A stretch of DNA of 64,000 bases from positions 60,862,946 through 60,926,945 of the forward strand of contig OZ023266.1 in the NCBI GenBank assembly GCA_964006375.1, in the 5' to 3' direction. This document shows, in pieces, positions 1,092 through 62,445 of this stretch. The notes under the pieces are model-generated. The model had not been told where the DNA came from, made no database searches, and saw only the letters and a list, made by a program, of their open reading frames with translations. The position numbers and the translations under genes were made by a program. Source of the stretch: Tillus elongatus. Lineage: Eukaryota; Arthropoda; Insecta; Coleoptera; Cleridae. Each line of letters begins with the position of its first letter. The stretch's first letter is position 1.

Positions 1092-2636
<1,545 letters not shown>

Positions 2637-10844: not shown

Positions 10845-11085
10845 TTAGTCCTTATGATTAGCAAAATGGGAGGACTGTTCACTTTTGGTGAAAAATTGGA
10901 CATGTTTTGCAATACGAACCCTGACTTGGATTCTCCGTTTACTATAGTAAGGAAAATTCTTCAATTTTTCATCCTCTGATGGCACTACTTTGGTTAGTGA
11001 AACGATCGTCAGTTTTTTTAACTGTGCTTCGATGATTTGGGTTCTCCAAATGTATTTATCAGTGCTCACAGGTTCCAATCTTTAT
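10845..11085 (+). repeat. Penelope-like 3' region fragment with a decayed hammerhead motif
   Basis: This shares cgaaacgatcgt-type and gatttgggttctccaa sequence with the region downstream of the Penelope-like element at 50.1 kb and with the inverted copy at 51.0 kb. The motif at about 10978-11010 reads CTGATGG, a paired CACTA/TAGTG stem, then AAACGATCGTC. It resembles a hammerhead core with the A at position 9 changed to G and little stem I pairing, so it is probably inactive. Confidence 0.55.
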
Positions 11086-13320: not shown

Positions 13321-13892
13321 AAGTACCTACAGGAATTCATTAAAATCATTATTTTTTTTAGTTATCGGTGTGAAACATGTATATAAACAAAGAAAATATT
13401 GAAACAGTCCCAGGCGATGTGTTCTAAGGGTTCTAGTTCGCGCTTATTTAAAAACAATGTAAATTTCGGGACGCAGAAAGTGCGTTACGGTAGCAATAAA
13501 TTTTTCAAACTTATATAACTCAATTTGCTATTAACCTACAAAGTTGAATTTTGGTATCTAGTAAGGCATTTACGAAGACAACATATCAACCAAATTTCAT
13601 CAAAATAACTTTGTTATTTTTTAAGATACAGTTTCCTTGGTCTGTGGATGTTAGTGAGTGCGAGTACCACTCTACCTCAATTTCCCATTCACTACTGTGT
13701 GTGGTTGAGTGTGTCCATTAGGATTCCTCACTCCTCATTCCAAAAAAAAATTCGGAACGCAGGAAGTGCGTTATGGAGGTGAATTTTCATAAAAATGTTT
13801 TTAATTACAAATATATCGCTCTAATGCGCGCAGGCATTAATTTGGTTACCGGTATAACCTATATAGTAGGAAGACTAGATGCATTCTCGCAA

Positions 13893-13953
13893 CAATTAGA
13901 ACCGTAGACCGGTTTCGCTCTCATTAGAGCTCTTCAGTACGGCATACTAATTG
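13893..13953 (-). ncRNA. Type I hammerhead ribozyme, minus-strand copy
   Basis: This is the reverse complement of the ribozyme at 14408-14468 with every core position preserved (cleavage triplet on the minus strand at 13909-13907). A third, truncated minus copy at about 14200-14233 keeps only the 3' half, from stem II onward, and marks the start of the minus array. Confidence 0.85.
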
Positions 13954-14407
13954 CAGCAAAAATGCACCAAAAATAACACGGCTATCGTATAGCCAGTCTT
14001 AAAACACTAAGTGAGCAGCGAACGTGTCGCCACCTAGTTCGGAAACCAAGTACTTGTTGTCACGCCCGCTCCAAATAATACAGAGTATTAAAAATAGAGA
14101 CGGTATACAACTAACTAACAATTTAAAAAATTGTTAGCCCTGGTCCATTTCTACCCCAATATAGGGACAAAGTATGTAAGACTAGATGCATTCTCGCAAC
14201 AATTAGAACCGTAGACCGGTTTCGCTCTCATTTTTTAAATTGTTAGTTAGTTGTATACCGTCTCTATTTTTAATACTCTGTATTATTTGGAGCGGGCGTG
14301 ACAACAAGTACTTGGTTTCCGAACTAGGTGGCGACACGTTCGCTGCTCACTTAGTGTTTTAAGACTGGCTATACGATAGCCGTGTTATTTTTGGTGCATT
14401 TTTGCTG

Positions 14408-14468
14408 CAATTAGTATGCCGTACTGAAGAGCTCTAATGAGAGCGAAACCGGTCTACGGTTCTAATTG
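14408..14468 (+). ncRNA. Type I hammerhead ribozyme, plus-strand copy
   Basis: All core elements are visible. Stem I inner strands are CCGTA (14419-14423) and TACGG (14455-14459), extended past an internal loop by CAATTAG (14408-14414) with CTAATTG (14462-14468). The core is CTGAAGA (14424-14430). Stem II is GCTCT/AGAGC with loop AATG (14431-14444), then GAAA (14445-14448). The minimal self-complementary stem III is ACCGGT (14448-14453) and the cleavage triplet is GTC, with cleavage expected after C14454. A short palindromic stem III is typical of Penelope and retrozyme hammerheads and is thought to favour cleavage as a dimer. Confidence 0.85.
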
Positions 14469-15616
14469 TTGCGAGAATGCATCTAGTCTTACATACTTTG
14501 TCCCTATATTGGGGTAGAAATGGACCAGGGCTAACAATTTTTTAAATTGTTAGTTAGTTGTATACCGTCTCTATTTTTAATACTCTGTATTATTTGGAGC
14601 GGGCGTGACAACAAGTACTTGGTTTCCGAACTAGGTGGCGACACGTTCGCTGCTCACTTAGTGCTATATAGTAGGAACAATGTACCATATTTTATCAAAA
14701 TAACTTGTTTATAAATGTACAAAAATTTTCCGAAAATAAACTTTAAATGTTTCCGATAAAACTGGTTTCCTAGCCAATTAACTTTAGGTTAATAGCAAAT
14801 TCTGTTATTGAAACATTTAATGAAATTTCGCTACCAAAACGCCCTTGCTGCGTCCATACAATAATTTTCCGAAAATAAAGTTAAATGTTGGTTTCCTAAC
14901 CAACAAAACTTACGTTAATAGCAAACTGAGTTATTGAAATTTGAAGGATTTAATTAAAATTCGCTACCAAATCGCACTTACTGCGTCCAGATTTTTTTCT
15001 TACAAACATACATCATATTTCGATAAAAAATGCAAAAATGCATTAACGAATTTGTTCTACGAAAATTAGCTAAAAATTATAGACCATTAAACCATAAACC
15101 TACAGCGAAAGCATCAACTTAACTAAACCGACAGCCAAAGCATCAGAGAAACGGTCTATTTGAAATGATTTTTCTGTAAACATTTTAGTAAAATGAAGGG
15201 CAATGACGATTGAATATGACTCTTAAGGGTTGTTCTGTTCTTGCAACATTTTCTTTTCACAATCCGTATTTGTTGTGTACCTAAACATTGCCAATTTTGA
15301 CGTTTCAAACTGCGAGTTTGCGTTTTGAGGAAAACTCCAATTTTTTTTTGCTGCCCGTAACTTTTTTGTCTTTAAACTTAGAGACCTAAGTTTTGGTACA
15401 TGGTTCACTCTTTATAATACAAATATGCGCACCAAATTTGGTTACCCTCACTTTGTTATTTCCAGGGATATAATTTTTTTAGAAAGAAAACACAAAATTT
15501 TCCGGGAAAAACTGGTCGGATTTTCCTGGGTAACGAACTTATCCAAGCCACTTGCAAAAGAAAGGTACTCACCAAATTTGATCAAGATCGGTCCATGATT
15601 TTTTGAGTTATCAGTA

Positions 15617-20149: not shown

Positions 20150-22069
20150 CAGGGTAGCGCATTGAAAACGAAACGGACCGATTTGCGTCCTGATTATTTT
20201 TTTTTAAGAAACGCTGAAACACGTCAATTTTAATATTTGGGGGGACATGTTTTGACATAAAACTCAACTTTGTCACATCAACCCCTTAAGGGTGGTGATA
20301 ACAACCCTTATATTTTAAATAAGGAACATGGGTCGAGTGTTACATCATTTGAAAGCTCTTTCTTTTCTGAATTCACCACACTAATTTTTTTTGTTTTATC
20401 AACTCGTTTAAAATTTATTCACAGTTGAAGATGCAAAAACGCATTTCACTCATTCCGATAAGAAATGTGCTGATAGTTAATGTTTTGTTGGTTTGTAAAC
20501 AAAAAATTGACTATCAGAACATTTCTTATCGGAATGAGAGAAATGCGGTTTCTTATTTCAGTTTATCGATCGGTTTGATACTTGATAGTACTACTGAAAA
20601 TTAATTTCACAATGGTGTATTCTGTAGAAGAAAGAGTTGAAATAATTACTCTTTTTTTGAAAAACGATGACTGTGCCAACCGTACCGCAAATTTGTTTAA
20701 TGAACGACATCCGAACAGACATGTTAACAGAAAATACATTTTGGAGTTAGTTGCAAAGTTTCGACAAAGTGGTTCAGTGGCCTACAAAAAACGGGATCCT
20801 GAACGTAAATTTCCGGTTAGAAATGAGACTACTGAGATTCAAGCTTTAGGACAAATTGCTGCAGACCCAACTTTGAGCACGAGAAAATTGGCCACTGTTT
20901 CAAACATCAAAAGAAGAACTATTCAGCGAATATTGAAGCATCATAAATTTCACCTGTATAAAATTCATCTTGTACAACAACTGAATGAAGATGATTTTGA
21001 TCGGCGGCTGGAGTTTTGTGAAGTAATGACTGCACGAATAGCTGATAACGGGAACTTTCTGTTCAATATCTGTTTTTCAGACGAGTATACGTTTTTATGA
21101 AACTCTACAGTCAATCGTCATAGTTGTCGTTATTGGGCAGATAATAATGCAATACATTTTTACGAAGTCCGCACTCAAACTCCAAAGAAATTGAATGCCT
21201 GGACTGGCATTTTAGGAGACCGTTTAATCGGACCAATTTTTCTTGATGGCAATTTTAGTGGCGAAGCGTATTTGGAGTTACTAGAAGATATCGTTTACCC
21301 TCTACTAATTGACATTGTTGAAAATGATGATCGCTATCAAGAAAATCAATTATTGTTTCAACAAGATGGAGCTCCTCCGCAATTTTCACAACGTGTTAGG
21401 GAGTTTTTGAACAGAGAGTTTCCAGGACAATGGATTGGGCGTAGAGATGCTATTGAGTGGCCCCCTAGATCACCCTAGATCCTTTAGACTTCTTTCTATG
21501 GGGCCATTTAAAGAGTCAAATTTACGCAGCAGAACCGGAGTCTCTGTAAGAATCACGTTGACGTATTGTTGAAGAATGCCGTCTAATAACTCCACAAATG
21601 CTCCAGAATGTCAGAGCTCGTTTTGAACAAAATTTGTACTCTTGTACGGAAGCTGGTGGTCAATAATTTGAACACTTACTTAACTGAATAAACATTTTTG
21701 AACGTTTGGTTTTGTTTTTTAGTTTTTTTTTAAACGAACAATTGACTAATTAGTGCATTTCTTATCACAATGAATGAAATACATTCTTCCAATTCCAACT
21801 GTGAATAATTTTTAAAGGAGTTGGTAAACTTCCAAAAAAAATAGTGTGCTGAATTCGGAAAGGAAAGAGCTTTCAAACGATGACACTCGACCCATGTTCC
21901 CTATTTAAAATATAACGGTTGTTATCACCACCTTTAAGGGGTTGATGTGACAAAGTTGAGTTTTATGTCAAAGCATGTCCCCCTCAATATTAAAATTGTC
22001 GTGTTTCAGCGTTTCTTAAAAAACAAATTTCTTTGGACGCAAATCGGTCAGTTTCGTTTTCAATTCGCC

Positions 22070-26745: not shown

Positions 26746-28949
<2,204 letters not shown>

Positions 28950-36244: not shown

Positions 36245-37470
36245 GAACAGTCGTTTGGACCTCAATAACCATCGCCCTATTTTACTTATGTCTAACGTTT
36301 CCAATGTGATAGATCAAATAATTAGGGGAAGGGGGTTGTCATAAATTGATCAATACCAGCTTCTTTCCTACAAGCAATATGGATTTAGAAACAGCAAATG
36401 TGCTCAAGATGCGGCGGCGAAGTTAGTTTTGACAATTAATTGCAAAGTAGATTGCGGAATGCTTTCAGCTACAGTATTTGTTGACTTGTCTAAGGCTATT
36501 GACAAAGTTGATCACACTAATCTGTTAGAAGGCTTGAAAAATTTAGGCTTCAGTGGTACTACGTATAAACTTCTAAAAAGCTATTTAGATGATAGATTTC
36601 AATGTGTAGCCTTAAGAGGCAGTGAACCGCGAGAGTTCAAATATGGAGTACCTCAGGGGAATGTTCTGTGCCCTCTTCTATTTAATTTATATATTGATGA
36701 ACTGCGCCAGCAAAGATTTTACGGTGAAAAAATCAGTTACGCAGACTCGTACCACAATTAGTAAAGATCATTGTTTAGTGTTTGAGTGGTTTTTAAGCAA
36801 GGCATTGACAATTAGTTTTGATAAAACAAATTTCTTGCCTGTTACGTGCTATGCAGACAGACTTCCTGAGTACAAAGAAGTAATAATAAAAATCAACAAC
36901 CAGACAGTCTTGATTGTATCTACAAAAAGACGCCAATTTGGGTGTCATTCCAATTTAAGATGGACAGATCACATTATGTGAGTGGTCAACAAAATTCTTG
37001 CGCTCATTGCAAAATTCAAGGAATTGACTCAACCTTTTAATCAAAAACCTTTGATGATCCTTTATCACGCTTTAGAGGAGACGCACTTGGGTTACGGGAC
37101 GGTGGTGTGGGGTGGTGCAGCAGGATTGCATGTGAAAATTCTGGAAAAAAAACTCAAAAATGGGTGCTCAAGATAATATGTGGAATGAGATATACATGTC
37201 CATCTGAAAAATTGTATTTAAATTTTGGAGACAATGGTACATTCTGGATTTAATAAAATGGCAATGTAAAAATAAATGGTTCGCTTGAATTGGTTTCATC
37301 TATTTACAGAACAAGAAGAGATGCCATTGCTTATGTTGTACCTAGATGTGGAAGGTTTATAGGTCAGCGCTGTCAGGCCTACACTGGCCCAAAGGTACAG
37401 AATTTTTTGCCAGATGCAATAAAAACAATTATGTGCAGCAAACATAAATTTTCCAAACTGGTTAAAGACT
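36245..37470 (+). pseudogene. CR1/Jockey-group reverse transcriptase fragment
   Basis: Starting at NNHRPILLMSNVSNVIDQII, the frame passes through QYGFRNSKCAQDAAAKLVL to ATVFVDLSKAIDKVDHTNLL, the palm Asp motif. It continues through LKSYLDDRFQCVALRG to FKYGVPQGNVLCPLLFNLYI, the conserved GVPQG. The catalytic YADD has become YADS, followed by a frame break at 36759. The thumb region (WFLSKALTISFDKTNFLPVT, DHIM) and a C-terminal tail including RRDAIAYVVPRCGRFIGQRC follow in broken frames up to a CT-rich tract. The lost catalytic Asp and several stops mean it is inactive. Confidence 0.8.
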
Positions 37471-38467: not shown

Positions 38468-40976
<2,509 letters not shown>

Positions 40977-46678: not shown

Positions 46679-48577
46679 TGTCTATATAGTAATTGCATAA
46701 ATTCAATAAAATTGAAAGTGAGCATTATTAAGGAAAGTTCGAAAACAAGTCGATTTTTACTGTCAGGAACTAACTTTTTGATATAAAAATCTCACCCCTA
46801 TCGTCATACCTCTTCAAAGGGTAGCTATCCCTTCGAAATTTCGAAATTGGATGGTCGGTAGTGTAATAAATCTTTTTAAAGCTAATCCAATTCTCTATTT
46901 AGCAACACCATTTTTTTTTGTAGGAATAAAATAAAGTGAGTAATAGCATTTTTATTATCAGTAACACCTCACACAAGTGAATGCTGTAAAGAATTACATA
47001 GTCCAGTCTTATGATACTGATATGATACCTATGGTATGATACTTCAATATCTCAAAGTCTGTAAACAATGTTCACAATGTTGGGGAACCCCAGAGATTTT
47101 GTTGTATACTATGTCGTATCTGTAGCAATCGACTGATGATAACAGTTATCTGCTCTGTGACATGTGTCATAAAAGCTGATCAAGCATAAGTTTGCTACAT
47201 TTTGCGATACAACCTACAGATCATGGTAGTAAATTTATGTTTTGGTGGTCGTGCAAAGTGAGTCGGTATAATTTTCAACTTTTGCTTTTCAAATTAATTA
47301 TCAAATTGTTGGTAAAATGCGTTTATCAATAGCTCAAAGAATTGAAGTTCCAATGATGAATAGTTATGGTGAGAGGATCCGAATTCAGGCAGAGGTGTGT
47401 ATTCTGTTTATACTAAATATCCGGATATGTCTATCAATCAATTAACAGTGAGTCGAATAAATAAGAAATTTCGAGAAACGTCTAGCGTGGAAGATTTGCC
47501 AAAAACAGGTTGCCGGTCTATAAGTGAAGAAGTGAATGTAAACGTCTTATTGGCAGTGGAAGAGAATCTCCACAGTAGTGTTCGGCAAATTGGCCGAACA
47601 AATATAATTCCATTTCAGACGACACATAAAGTATTAAAACTTGAAAAGCTTTATCCTTACAAAATACAGGTTTTGCATGAGTTATCCGATCACGACTCAC
47701 ACCGAAGGATGCAGTGTTGTGCAACATTAATGGATAAATGTAATGATAACCCTTTGCAAGTACCGAATATTCTGTTTTCGGACGAATCTCCATTTACACT
47801 ACATGACGAAGTTAACCGAAAAAACTGTAGATATTGGGCAAGAGAAAATCGAAGATAGACGCGGCATAATCACACACAATATCCACCAAAGCTAAGTGCT
47901 TAGTCATGGATTGTTAGGAGTAGGATTATTGGTCCCTATTTTCTTGATGGAACTATAAATTGACCATGATATCTACAATTTTAACAGCACTATCTTATTC
48001 CGACGTTACTAAACTTATTTCTTGATGGACACAATGCTGGTATGGTAAATCATAGCCTGTGGCATCAACAAGATAGTGCCCTCGCGCATTATGACGTTAA
48101 TTTTCGACGGTATCTGGATCAACAATTTTCCAACAGATGTATTGGCAGGCGTGGTGCAATCTAGTGGCCAGCAATATCACCTAACATAACTTCCTTAGAT
48201 TTTTTTCCTGTGGGCTCGTTTGAAGAATGTGGTATTCAGAAATAAACCACATACTATCGACGAATTAAAAATAAGAATTAGAACTGACTGTACCAACATT
48301 TCTCCAGAGATTGTAAATAGAGTCCAACAAGAATTTATTGACCGTTTGTGATATTGTCAGGCACAAGAAGGCGGGTATTTCGACATTTGATTAGATAAGA
48401 CTGAACTATGTAATTCTGTATAGGTTTCACTTAGCTACCTCTTGAAGAATGGTAGGGGTGAGATTTTTAAAACAAAATGTTAGTTTTTGAAAATAAAAAT
48501 CAACCGGATTTTTTAATTTTCCTTAATAATGGTCACTTCAATTTTTATAAATTTATGCGTTACTTTGTAGGCACAGG

Positions 48578-48722: not shown

Positions 48723-49063
48723 TTTTTTTTTTAATAAAAATAATGGCTTGCTTGAATTCGATGTCTACAGGAAGGAAACGGCGACTATTAGTCATATTCC
48801 TGACGACCTACATCATACGTTTGCACAAAAAATGGCTATTTTTAATTTCCTAGTAAACAGATTGATAAAAAAGTGGATTTAATACAGAATTAAAATACAT
48901 AAGAATCGTGGCGAGATATAACGGTTATTCGGATAGTTTAATAGACAAATTGGTTAACAAACACAGAACAAAGAAAATTATATCTGAATATACGACATTT
49001 AAGGAAGATATAATAGAGAAAAAAATTGTGTGTTTACCTTAAAAACCACGAATCACAAAGGGT

Positions 49064-49465
49064 TTGGAAAGTATTTTTAAGAAATCCGATTTACATTTGA
49101 CTTTTTCCACGAAAAGTAATTTGGATAAGTTGTTGGGTAATACGAAAGACAAAGACAAAGTCACTGAAATTCCTGGTATTTATGAGATTAGTTGCAAAGA
49201 TTGCAATCTTAAATACGTGGGTCAAACTAGGAGAAACATAGCCACCAGATTTCGTGAACATCTCGCACATTTACGATATGGTACGGTGGACAAATCGTGT
49301 GTGGCACAACATATATGGGATAATAATCACCATATTGCCAAAGAAAATTTGAAACTTGTCAAAAATGTTAGACATCAAACTATGCTTGATTCATTAGAAA
49401 GTATTTTTATATCAAGGTCGATTAAGAACAAAACTTCATTGAATCGTGCGCCATCTTTAATTTGA
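49064..49465 (+). pseudogene. GIY-YIG endonuclease domain of the Penelope-like element
   Basis: This uninterrupted 133-codon frame encodes the C-terminal domain that nicks DNA for Penelope-like retrotransposition. Visible motifs are GIYEISCKDCNLKYVGQTRR (the GIY and the YIG variant YVG, with the CxxC typical of these elements), the Arg/His segment ATRFREHLAHLRYG, VAQHIWDNNHHIAKENLKLV, and a C-terminal Glu in LDSLESIFISRSI. The frame is open to its natural stop at 49463. Upstream frames are broken, so the element as a whole cannot be expressed as one protein. Confidence 0.85.
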
Positions 49466-50095
49466 AGCCCTTTATTTTCATTTTGCATTTGACCATTTAA
49501 ACACTCCTAATTTTTCTGGTAGAATAATAAATTACTGTCAATAACTCGGCCGGTCTATACAGATACTAATCTCTATGCTTGTCTCGACTTAAAGACCCTT
49601 TCGTTTTCTTTGTATCTAAGAAGTCAATATAAATACTGTTTTTACGAAGAATTAAAATCAATATAAATTTAGTTTTTATGTAGTATTTTAGTTGAATTAT
49701 TTATCCTTTGCTAGAGTTAACATTGTGAGCTAAACACCTGGGTTAGTTTTTTATAATAAATATGAGCGGAGGTTATGGTGTTTGTTTCGCCAGATGTGCT
49801 TGTCGGCTTGCTCCAATATCCACATAGTAAATTTCTAGATCAAAAGGAACGTGCAGAGTCCTTAAATAACTCGGTACCTTTCCTTTAAAGCCTATTATCC
49901 TTACATTAGATAAGAGCTCATAAATTTGCCAACCAGAAGATTAAAGCAGGTCTTCGACCTCGCAGTTTCACTACACAATAAACAAACGATGGGTCTTCGA
50001 CGACAATTTTATTTCAGACTAGTTCGTTTACCTAGACGCGATATAAATACACTGTAGCTTGTAGTTTAATTTTAGAATTTTTCTTCCTCTGAAGA

Positions 50096-50133
50096 CGTTG
50101 ACATGGTCAACGAAACGATCGTAAGCTCTCTGA
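50096..50133 (+). ncRNA. Decayed hammerhead motif in the Penelope-like 3' region
   Basis: CTGAAGA is followed by one unpaired C, a six-base-pair stem II (GTTGAC/GTCAAC, loop ATG), GAAA, the palindrome ACGATCGT and the triplet GTA. Stem I pairing is only about two base pairs, so self-cleavage is doubtful. The context next to the GIY-YIG frame ties this hammerhead lineage to Penelope-like elements. Confidence 0.55.
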
Positions 50134-50190
50134 AATATGTGTTGTGGTGATTTGGGTTCTCCAAGTGTACTTATTAATGCTCATCACAGG

Positions 50191-50984
50191 TTCCAGTTTT
50201 CACATAGCCTGTATCTTGGTTATTACAAAATTTTCGGTATAGCTAAGTATGATTGGTTTCTCTGTGTACCATGAATTAGTGGACACCTGTGTAAAGATAT
50301 GCAATGGAAAATAGCACAAAACGCTATATCTGGTTCTGTGGCGGTTCTAGGTTTCCACAGCAGCTTCCACGTACACATAGTACGTCAAGAAAGAAGCTGC
50401 GGAAAGAAACTATCTAGCGAAAACAAATACTCCCCTGGCCAATACCGCGACGGGCAAGTATCTGCCCTAGCGACCACCTTATATGTATCCTAACCGTTTA
50501 TAATAAACTTTGACAGCAGTTCTCTTTGAATATTCAGCAGTGTGCTTTAATTAGGACAGGATATGTTCCACAATTTGTTTCTTTTAATCGCTTAACATAA
50601 AAAACAACCAAAGATGACAAAGATATGCCTACGCATATAAATAAATTACGGTGTATATCTAAATAAAGATAATGGCGATTATTTATCATACACACTAATA
50701 ATACTAATTTACTTCTTAGATTAAGCTTACTACGTTTAATAACACAAAGGTATGATAATTATTATGATGGTCTGGTATCATTTCATCTGTGGCTATCATT
50801 AATGATATATAGATTCTAGTACTTTTTGATTAAATGTGTACCGGAAGTATTTAATATATTCTGGAAAAATATCGTGAATTTCGCCTTACTCGTTTTGAGA
50901 CGAATTTGTATGCGTTGTTGTCGTTTTGTTGCGTACCAAAATCACAGCTTTTAGTTGCTAAGTGATTGGAAACTATGATGAACA
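50191..50984. other. Unassigned DNA
   Basis: No supported feature; GC content rises at about 50300-50490 without a recognisable gene. Confidence 0.35.
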
Positions 50985-51105
50985 CTGAGAAGCACACTTG
51001 GAGAACTCAAATCACCACAACATATTTCAAAAAACCTGACGATCGTTTCACTAACCAAGTTCGTGTCATCAGGCGATGTATAATTCTAAATATCTTGTAT
51101 CCACA
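50985..51105 (-). repeat. Inverted Penelope-like 3' region fragment
   Basis: The minus strand reads CTGATGACACGAACTTGG, a short stem, AAACGATCGTC, then gatttgagttctccaagtgt, homologous to 50096-50170 and 10978-11060. The hammerhead core is present but stem I does not pair. Confidence 0.6.
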
Positions 51106-51867: not shown

Positions 51868-52039
51868 GATTTTTTATATTCTTCTGAAGGTAGTCGGTCA
51901 CTAACGATTTAGGGAGGTTCAATGACAACAAACATCCGACGTGCTTCTGTCGGTATTTATTTTTTAAAGTAATCTATCAGGAGACTACCCATAGGCGGCA
52001 GAGCGAGATTCATACACTTTTTATTATTACCATATTTAG

Positions 52040-52042
<3 letters not shown>

Positions 52043-52099
<57 letters not shown>
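52043..52099. repeat. (TA)n tract abutting a Penelope-like copy
   Basis: The tract ends exactly where the minus-strand Penelope-like fragment begins. Confidence 0.85.
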
Positions 52100-52945
52100 T
52101 TTCGAAGGCGTTTAGTTGTCCTGGTTGTTTAACATTTTTTATTAATTTTAGATTCTCCTCATTAACGTGGTGATTATTTTCCCAAATATGTCGGGCGACG
52201 GAAGATCTATCTGTAGTACCGTATCTTAATTGTGCTAAATGTTCTTTGAATCTAATTAATAATTAATTAATATGATATAATGTCTTTTTGACGTCTGTTT
52301 TGTTTCAAATTATAAGTCTATATTTTTTAGTTTATTTTAACAGATATTCTAAAAAATAAAAAAGTTTTTGCGAATAATGGTTGTTAAAGGTATGTGTTTG
52401 TCTGAAAGTAATAGTAATGGTTAGAATTAAAGATGGAGTGAGTAAATGGCGGAATAAAAATCAAGGTTTTTATCATGTCAAAATTTAATTTGTCAATGTC
52501 CTGGAAATTTTGCTAATACCGTTTGGACACAACGTATGAAAATTGCATCTTAGACAGGCACAAGTTTAAAACTTCTTTGTCAAATAATGCACTGTAAAAT
52601 TTGTATCAATAAACTGATAATAATAATAATTCCAATATATCTTTTTGTTCGTTCGACGTATTTAAGGTCACAATCTTTACAACCTATTTCAAAATTCCCG
52701 AGACTTTGGCCGTGCTATCCCTGTTTTTTGGGATACCTGGCTGGTTTTTTAAAGTTTTTTTGACGAAAATGTTAGTTGCAAGTTAGTTTTAAAAAAAGAC
52801 TATATAGACCCCTCGTGATTCGAGGTTCAAATGGTAAGCACAGAAACTTTTTTTCTGCTTTCTCTCTTCTAAAATTCGTTAATTCCGCTAACGTTTTCTT
52901 TGTTTTCTGTTTGTTAATTAGTTTCTCCACTAGGCAAACAGTGTA
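52100..52945 (-). pseudogene. Penelope-like linker and GIY-YIG fragment, split by an insertion
   Basis: On the minus strand, CLVEKLINKQKTKKTLAELT and EKKFLCLPFEPRITRGLYSL (about 52780-52940) correspond to the linker between reverse transcriptase and endonuclease. Next, GCKDCDLKYVERTKRYIG (about 52625-52690) is the first half of GIY-YIG. After about 360 bases of unrelated AT-rich DNA (52260-52620), RFKEHLAQLRYGTTDRSSVA and RHIWENNHHVNEENLKLIKN (52110-52255) continue the domain. It is closely related to the plus-strand copy at 48.7-49.5 kb. The GQTR of the active site has become ERTK, and a piece of 3' region (gatttgggttttccaagtgt, about 52957) sits in opposite orientation at its edge. Confidence 0.75.
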
Positions 52946-61810: not shown

Positions 61811-61813
<3 letters not shown>

Positions 61814-62445
61814 AGAAGAGTTAAGTGCAAAGCCGCAAGGAGACAACCGCATACACGTACGGTATAGCCAGGTGAAAATGGAAACACTCTGGATGAAGAT
61901 GCAAAAAAACACGGAGTCACAACAGGCAACCAGTGCACATTTGCAGCAACATTCGGAAGACACTCAATCTGAGGGAAATAACCAAAAAAGCCACGGAGGC
62001 AAAGAAATCAGCTGCGTGAGCATCCGAAGCCCAGGAAGTTATATTAACTATAACATAAGCCGCAAGGAGACAACCGCATACACGTGTTTCTCTTGTATGG
62101 TACAGAATTTCCGTGTTATAAATCCTATTATAGTTAATATAACTTCCTGGGCTCCGGGTGCTCACGCAGGTGACTTCTTTGCCTCCGTGGCTTTTTTGGT
62201 GTTTCCCTCGGATTGAGGGTCTTCCGAATCTTGCTGCAAATGTGCACTGGTTGCCTGTGGTGACTCCGTGTATTTTTGCATCTTCATCCAGAGTGTTCCC
62301 ATCTTCACCTGGCTATACCGTACTGATGATGGCTAATAAGCTGGAAACACGTGTATGCGGTTGTCTCCTTGCCGCTTTGCCCTTAACCCTTCTCTTGTAT
62401 AGTACAGAAATGCCGTGTTATAAATCCTGTTATAGTTTACATACA
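61811..62445. mobile_element. Hammerhead ribozyme foldback element with about 302-bp units
   Basis: Inverted arms at 61811-62053 and 62129-62396 match closely (gacaaccgcatacacgt; gtgcacatttgcagcaa; agccacggaggcaaaga). On the plus strand, tcttgtatggtacagaattt at 62091 recurs as tcttgtatagtacagaaatg at 62393, a tandem period of 302. The minus-strand array lacks the 27 bases holding the ribozyme core. The center (about 62087) begins in the stem III region of the hammerhead, much like the truncated copy at 14.2 kb. (TA)n lies on both sides; a target-site duplication cannot be read in TA repeats. No coding capacity is evident: the overlapping open frames follow the palindrome. Confidence 0.75.
62317..62361 (+). 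ncRNA. Type I hammerhead ribozyme
   Basis: Stem I is ACCGTA (62317-62322) with TGCGGT (62356-62361), including one wobble. The core is CTGATGA (62323-62329). Stem II is TGGCT/AGCTG with loop AATA (62330-62343), then GAAA (62344-62347). The self-complementary ACACGTGT (62347-62354) forms stem III and the triplet is GTA, with cleavage expected after A62355. All invariant core bases are present. Confidence 0.8.

Follow-up and report, generated by a model that had tools for sequence, protein, structure and literature searches.

The question raised by this locus is how a small element without coding capacity comes to lie in the genome of Tillus elongatus as two inverted arms of one and the same hammerhead-bearing unit, set between the two copies of a target-site duplication. 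The window, that is the whole stretch of 64,000 nt analyzed here (C5:60862946-60926945), contains at 13871-14663 an insert of 793 bp, a head-to-head foldback of a single 307-nt hammerhead unit. The minus arm (13871..14232, minus strand) is 362 nt long, or 1.18 units, with its outer end at unit position u261 (site B, see below) and its inner end at u207, and the plus arm (14230..14663, plus strand) is 434 nt long, or 1.41 units, running from an inner end at u1 to an outer end at u127 (site A). At the head-to-head junction (14230..14232) the arms overlap by 3 nt, a microhomology of ATT. Neither arm has a mismatch to the 307-nt unit (362/362 positions in the minus arm and 434/434 in the plus arm), and against each other the inverted arms are identical at 100% over 261 nt and at 99% over 233 nt. 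The preliminary description had spoken of two opposed arrays of this unit; the foldback, the opposed orientation and the 307-nt unit all hold, although halves of just 1.2 and 1.4 units are hardly arrays.

The insert interrupts a dispersed repeat and has on each side one copy of an exact 12-bp duplication, ctatatagtagg, at 13859..13870 on the left and 14664..14675 on the right (both given on the plus strand). A program count gives 14 bp, because two bases of the element match by chance, and 12 bp is the safe figure within the 12-14 bp previously proposed. Three paralogues of the interrupted repeat within the window hold the duplicated 12 bp only once, as seen by blastn of both flanks: two of these empty sites (26855..26866 and 38579..38590, plus strand) had already been recognized near 26862 and 38580, and the third (2519..2530, minus strand) is added here. 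No reading frame of 90 aa or more is listed across 13871-14663, and the 793-bp element has no frame for a reverse transcriptase (RT) or a GIY-YIG endonuclease.

Each strand carries one complete hammerhead motif, in agreement with what had been claimed. The plus copy (14408..14471, core 14424-14448) is a type I hammerhead with a palindromic stem III (ACCGGT) and a predicted cleavage after C14454, and the minus copy (13890..13953, core 13913-13937), identical to it in sequence, is predicted to be cleaved just after position 13907. The Rfam family Hammerhead_HH9 matches at 14406-14476 and 13885-13955 with 30.4 bits, under the curated cut-off of 52 (E-value 2.3e-5 when 1.1 kb is searched and 0.0014 for the whole window), and nothing in the window reaches the gathering score in the Rfam search. 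A strict hammerhead descriptor found three matches in the window vs none in 60 simulated windows, and a simpler core search placed hammerhead cores at 14424, 13937 and 62323, the last within a second element described below. The exact core is present in 36 of the 38 loci of the 307-nt family that were sampled. The textbook hammerhead fold, when forced, is worse (-14.5) than the free minimum (-21.2), a difference that we leave uninterpreted. Further Rfam matches to MIR6140, MIR821 and MIR530 are also under the cut-off, lie on long inverted repeats and were taken as by-products, and a hammerhead pattern scan across viral contigs gave no match. With a single complete ribozyme per strand, the window copy cannot by itself release the 307-nt monomer, and its RNA is predicted to fold as a long hairpin (-569 kcal/mol), so that this copy is probably a dead end. 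The unit size, the type I layout, the GC content of 40.7%, the tandem units and a duplication longer than 4 bp nevertheless bear out its earlier designation as retrozyme-like.

A genome search (1.72 Gb in 30 contigs) with the plus arm as query yielded 112 matches, drawn from the 40 best among 909 first-look candidates, and these were grouped by eye into 38 distinct loci; all 38 were taken with their flanks and the unit was mapped on each. The outer arms are minus on the left and plus on the right, that is head-to-head, in 30 of the 38 loci, tail-to-tail in none and of one orientation in eight. The foldback is therefore not a one-off, as the genome-wide count suggested at the outset could have revealed it to be, although these loci are the family members closest to the window copy and the share of 30/38 need not hold family-wide. 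The arms vary in length between less than one unit and 13.9 units and read through the intact cleavage junction; within an arm, units mismatch each other at 0.8% on average (34 arms). A duplication of 10–15 bp flanks 27 of the 30 foldbacks, most often of 13 bp (11 loci) or 12 bp (nine loci) and with one mismatch in two of the 27. All 27 differ in sequence, which makes the insertions independent. Outside this set stand L036, broken on its right side and with no duplication detected, L047, with a duplication of 7 bp only and with old fragments adjacent to the locus, and L057, whose left arm extends off its fetched stretch. Additional short pieces of mixed orientation are found in L032 and L047. 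The eight single-orientation loci are mostly without duplication, although L064 has one of 13 bp with one arm only, and another (L059) extends off its fetched stretch; priming from two strands, as proposed below, would thus be usual and not universal.

The outer ends of the arms are fixed at two sites of the unit, A at u122-130 (near u127) and B at u258-265 (near u262), 135 nt apart. In all 27 foldbacks with a 10–15-bp duplication one arm ends at A and the other at B (14 as B/A, 13 as A/B, none as A/A or B/B), and if the arms had chosen their site independently and evenly such an outcome would have a chance of about 2 to the power of -27. In the single-orientation loci, the right end likewise falls at A or B in eight of eight cases. 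At the cut positions, placed from the duplications, the sequence just beyond the cut on both strands is NTT in 28 of 54 cases vs 11.6% in the flanks (p 5e-13), and the base following N is T in 42 of the 54. The inner junctions, on the other hand, are spread all over the unit: among 28 of them, 13 share 1–3 nt between the arms, 12 have a gap, two have neither and one (in L032) shares 17 nt. When the consensus sequences of the arms are compared, the median difference is 0.33% within a locus (30 loci) vs 1.93% for opposite arms of different loci (1104 pairs). With ties counted, the partner is the closest arm in 19 of the 30 loci and is not in the other 11, the clear exceptions being L036, L040 and L049, in which it ranks 38th, 19th and 10th among 38.

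We consider it probable that these copies are those of an animal-type non-autonomous retrozyme, inserted by target-primed reverse transcription of an RNA circle at two sites and from two strands, with an enzyme of the type encoded by Penelope-like elements (PLEs). By analogy with known retrozymes, arrays would be transcribed and the hammerheads would cut the RNA to 307-nt monomers, which would then be closed into circles. An RT/endonuclease of the Penelope type, perhaps as a dimer, would grip one circle at the base of the stem that bears the ribozyme, so that start site A (about u127) would serve one target strand and B (about u262) the other. The 10–15-bp duplications indicate a staggered cut of the target, with NTT preferred just past each cut, and the model would have two priming 3′ overhangs follow from it. 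The anatomy of the copies shows one arm beginning at A and the other at B, each anywhere between less than one lap and 13.9 laps in length, and the two meeting at variable inner positions; the outcome is a head-to-head foldback flanked by the duplication. Since both 3′ ends of the staggered cut would prime on one RNA, the model can do without a strand switch. That an RNA circle was reverse transcribed had been put forward in the preliminary description, and we infer the same from arms of up to 13.9 laps across the intact cleavage junction and from same-locus arms that are on the whole the closest. Against a strict form of the model stand the 11 of 30 loci in which the partner arm is not the nearest and the 24 of 40 loci of the second element that are of one orientation (see below). 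The reaction of a PLE protein in vitro, as far as it is described in PMC11167929, starts at like sites on both strands and uses mainly unprocessed RNA as template, and is likewise a poor fit to strict circles with one site per strand.

Among the alternatives, the one that fares best leaves the two-strand mechanism unchanged and replaces the circles by uncut linear multimers as template. We regard it as unlikely, although the same PLE work gives it a precedent in its dominant unprocessed template (PMC11167929), and animal retrozymes are described in PMC7229834 as being transcribed as oligomers. Arms of up to 13.9 units with a mean unit mismatch of 0.8% would demand a very long RNA that stayed uncleaved in spite of mostly intact ribozymes.

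Improbable, and somewhat more so, is twin priming by a LINE, in which the enzyme would nick the target, a first primer would start at the 3′ end of the RNA and a second would anneal anywhere along it. In L1 twin priming one end is set by the poly(A) tail and the other site varies, and inversion is a minority outcome. The window does contain an RVT_1 fragment at 36345-36758 (Pfam E-value 4e-13) that is LINE-like by eye, 5′-inverted copies are known for L1 in the literature consulted, and duplications of 12–13 bp are compatible with LINEs as well. In the 307-nt family, however, neither outer end varies in site, so that the second site shows no scatter, no poly(A) tail is found at either of the outer ends examined in the foldbacks, and there is no T run in the bases just inside the cuts. 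The fixation of both ends led us to set LINE twin priming aside as first choice.

A snap-back, in which the target-primed cDNA would fold its 3′ end back and copy itself into the inverted half, appears to us very improbable. It has a published counterpart, as inverted repeats of PLEs with junction palindromes have been interpreted as self-priming (PMC3846280, in the portion consulted). An arm copied in this way should end at the same site as its template or enter inverted flank, and the two ends differ, as A and B, in 27 of 27 foldbacks, which is the ground on which we rejected both the snap-back and a strand switch. In the window copy, moreover, the minus arm reaches 134 nt beyond the outer end of the plus arm, and the plus arm 173 nt beyond that of the minus arm, so that neither arm could have templated the other. 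The strand switch near the ribozyme that had been suggested for this copy is thus not supported, given the two fixed outer ends, the scattered inner junctions and arms too short to serve as template. That an ordinary tandem copy has been inverted or misassembled, perfect inverted repeats being difficult to assemble, is hardly credible given the duplications adjoining both ends, the empty paralogues and the same polarity in 30 of 38 loci, 27 of them with A/B ends and distinct duplications.

If two-site, two-strand priming by a PLE-type enzyme is accepted as the preferred reading, a source for that enzyme is to be looked for, and the GIY-YIG PLE family represented in the window is a candidate. 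The window holds the GIY-YIG endonuclease part of a PLE (49043..49462, plus strand; Pfam PF01541, E-value 1.5e-7), for which a protein search returned three relatives, one of them from Aromia moschata. It is followed by the 3′ part of the same PLE with its pLTR and tail (49436..50207, plus strand), which has 81% identity to L076 up to the point where the match stops, at ..TTTTCACATAG. Fragments of the pLTR of another copy (50967..51089, minus strand) and of a third one (10963..11077, plus strand) were recognized by sequence match. A frame at 51960-52262 (minus strand) has no Pfam match and was read as PLE by eye. Transposase remains are also seen in the window at 20579-21478, with DUF4817 and HTH_Tnp_Tc3_2 matched in 20579-21097, and at 47373-48348; this second piece and the mariner-like label come from reading of the translation.

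PLEs are abundant in the genome: a related protein used as query gave 46,824 first-look candidates, and among the 150 that were scored ten had open frames of 783–811 aa. PLE neighbors at 6 kb or less, judged by eye among the 150 scored, are arranged minus-left/plus-right in 12 cases, in the same direction in two and plus-left/minus-right in none. The ends of PLE copies were read at two loci only. At C1:300026960-300034010 the left arm ends at ..GTGTACTTAT and the right arm extends at least 32 nt further toward the ORF (the "tail"). At the other, a 243-bp pLTR foldback without an ORF lies inside a PLE on C4 with a 12-bp duplication, ATAAGGGTCATA, and has one tailed and one short end; its target site is unfilled in a paralogous PLE copy on C1. 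Both loci thus have two types of end, a pattern similar to that of the 307-nt copies, and PLE and retrozyme follow the same rule where it is readable. This 243-bp foldback occurs, with its 12-bp duplication, in each of the two arms of a larger PLE foldback (L073, C4:142864950-142865700, and L074, 142870540-142871290). The hammerhead-like motif of the PLEs has a palindromic stem III as well. Compared with four PLE end pieces, the 307-nt unit gives matches of 11 nt only, and no pLTR sequence is shared.

The second element of the window (61812-62443) is also head-to-head, more diverged than the 793-bp copy and set between (TA)n tracts. Its minus arm (61812..62087, minus strand) is a diverged copy without a ribozyme core, and its plus arm (62088..62443, plus strand) comprises one 302-nt unit and 54 nt of the next, with a hammerhead-like motif at 62307..62370 (plus strand; core 62323-62347) whose stem III is palindromic (ACACGTGT). 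At this motif Rfam reports no hammerhead family up to E=1. Long TA/AT repeat tracts, 37 in number and about 57 to 183 bp in length, occur across positions 1393-62532 of the window. In the genome search with this element, the 40 best among 2083 first-look candidates contributed 138 matches, grouped into 40 loci, of which 16 are head-to-head, none tail-to-tail and 24 of one orientation. Its ends fall at two sites of their own, A2 near u12 and B2 near u50-56: where both ends of a foldback could be classed they are A2/B2 in eight of eight cases, one or both ends being unclassed in the other eight of the 16, and of four loci read closely three are A2/B2 and the fourth (L069) has one end at another position. 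The layout places an ATG at stem II (62329), the cut 26 nt further on, by the hammerhead rule that we take to apply here, and B2 about 114 nt on. In a PLE of Anolis the corresponding distances are given as 26 nt and 111–118 nt (PMC11167929), and this agreement suggests that the second element may be PLE-derived. Counting against such an origin, its unit matches none of the four PLE end pieces that were compared.

A prediction of the fold of the 307-nt unit as a circle offers one way in which two start sites could be read together. The minimum free energy is -103.0, whereas 60 mononucleotide shuffles average -70.2, and the fold contains a predicted helix between u131-137 (14360..14366, plus strand), adjoining site A, and u256-262 (14485..14491, plus strand), with site B at its 3′ end; its pair probabilities are 0.65–0.82. 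Sites A and B would in this prediction face each other across one helix. The motif TAGT is found close to all six end sites (A and B, A2 and B2, and the two PLE ends). This was noticed after the fact, and the naive product of chances, 3e-6, is uncorrected for the choice of the motif; TAGT is possibly a recognition motif at the start sites. We put forward tentatively, at somewhat less than even odds, that the foldback is the regular product of the reaction. The circle would act as a symmetric template whose two start sites are paired across a stem, one on each strand, a dimer would give each cut strand its own site and both polymerases would travel around one circle, completing up to about 14 laps, with a two-site code common to retrozymes and PLEs, perhaps through the TAGT at each start.

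The two-site rule bears on a question of the field, namely which enzyme moves animal retrozymes and which form of their RNA it uses. The case for PLEs as helpers rests, in the account of PMC7229834, on shared ribozymes, tandem copies and co-occurrence, and the paired ends would add a signature open to counting in the assembly of any genome, one that predicts start positions and ties retrozymes to the PLE reaction in vitro. It would also account for the long inverted repeats that these copies form.

Of the systems to which the 307-nt family may be compared, plant LTR retrozymes (PMC4918200) are alike in being non-autonomous, mobilized in trans and based on RNA circles made by hammerheads. They differ in a type III ribozyme, a unit of about 700 bp, an LTR/PBS/PPT organization and 4-bp duplications (according to PMC7229834), whereas the window copy has a type I layout and a 12-bp duplication. 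L1 twin priming resembles our model, in the accounts consulted, in that two target strands prime one RNA and an inverted 5′ part results, and differs from the 307-nt family with its two fixed ends and no poly(A). Animal non-LTR retrozymes are defined as tandem repeats, for which PLEs are named as strong candidates for the helper role (Cervera and de la Pena, 2020, PMC7229834), and have a type I hammerhead, a unit of 150–450 bp, low GC, tandem units and duplications longer than 4 bp. The element described here has a predicted type I hammerhead, a 307-bp tandem unit, 10–15-bp duplications in 27 of 30 foldbacks and no coding capacity. What sets it apart is that the copies of PMC7229834 are tandem, the word "inverted" being absent from its main text, and most copies sampled here are foldbacks with two fixed ends. 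The arrangement had been thought undescribed, and this is half right: among the papers listed from the open-licence literature our searches found no foldback retrozyme, no paired fixed ends of retrozymes and no two-site rule for them, although head-to-head copies of Penelope elements are already published (PMC3846280).

In Adineta vaga, as reported in the consulted part of PMC3846280, PLE copies have inverted pLTRs, most often head-to-head and with self-priming as the suggested origin, duplications of 8–10 bp or none, and a tail that one of the two inverted pLTRs may carry. Frangieh and colleagues describe a purified PLE protein from Anolis (PAc) that cleaves the target on both strands and extends each of them, with a preference for an ATT motif and with two internal start sites, the interval between them being the "tail" (PMC11167929); this element also has a hammerhead and an AT-rich target. 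PLEs differ from the 793-bp element in encoding their enzyme, in start sites about 30–40 nt apart vs 135 nt in the retrozyme, and in published duplications of 8–10 bp, absent in some copies, vs 10–15 bp here. Head-to-head terminal units, a duplication and one arm lengthened by a tail are common to the PLEs of Adineta vaga and Anolis, and the 307-nt family has the same head-to-head units flanked by a duplication, with arm ends at two sites.
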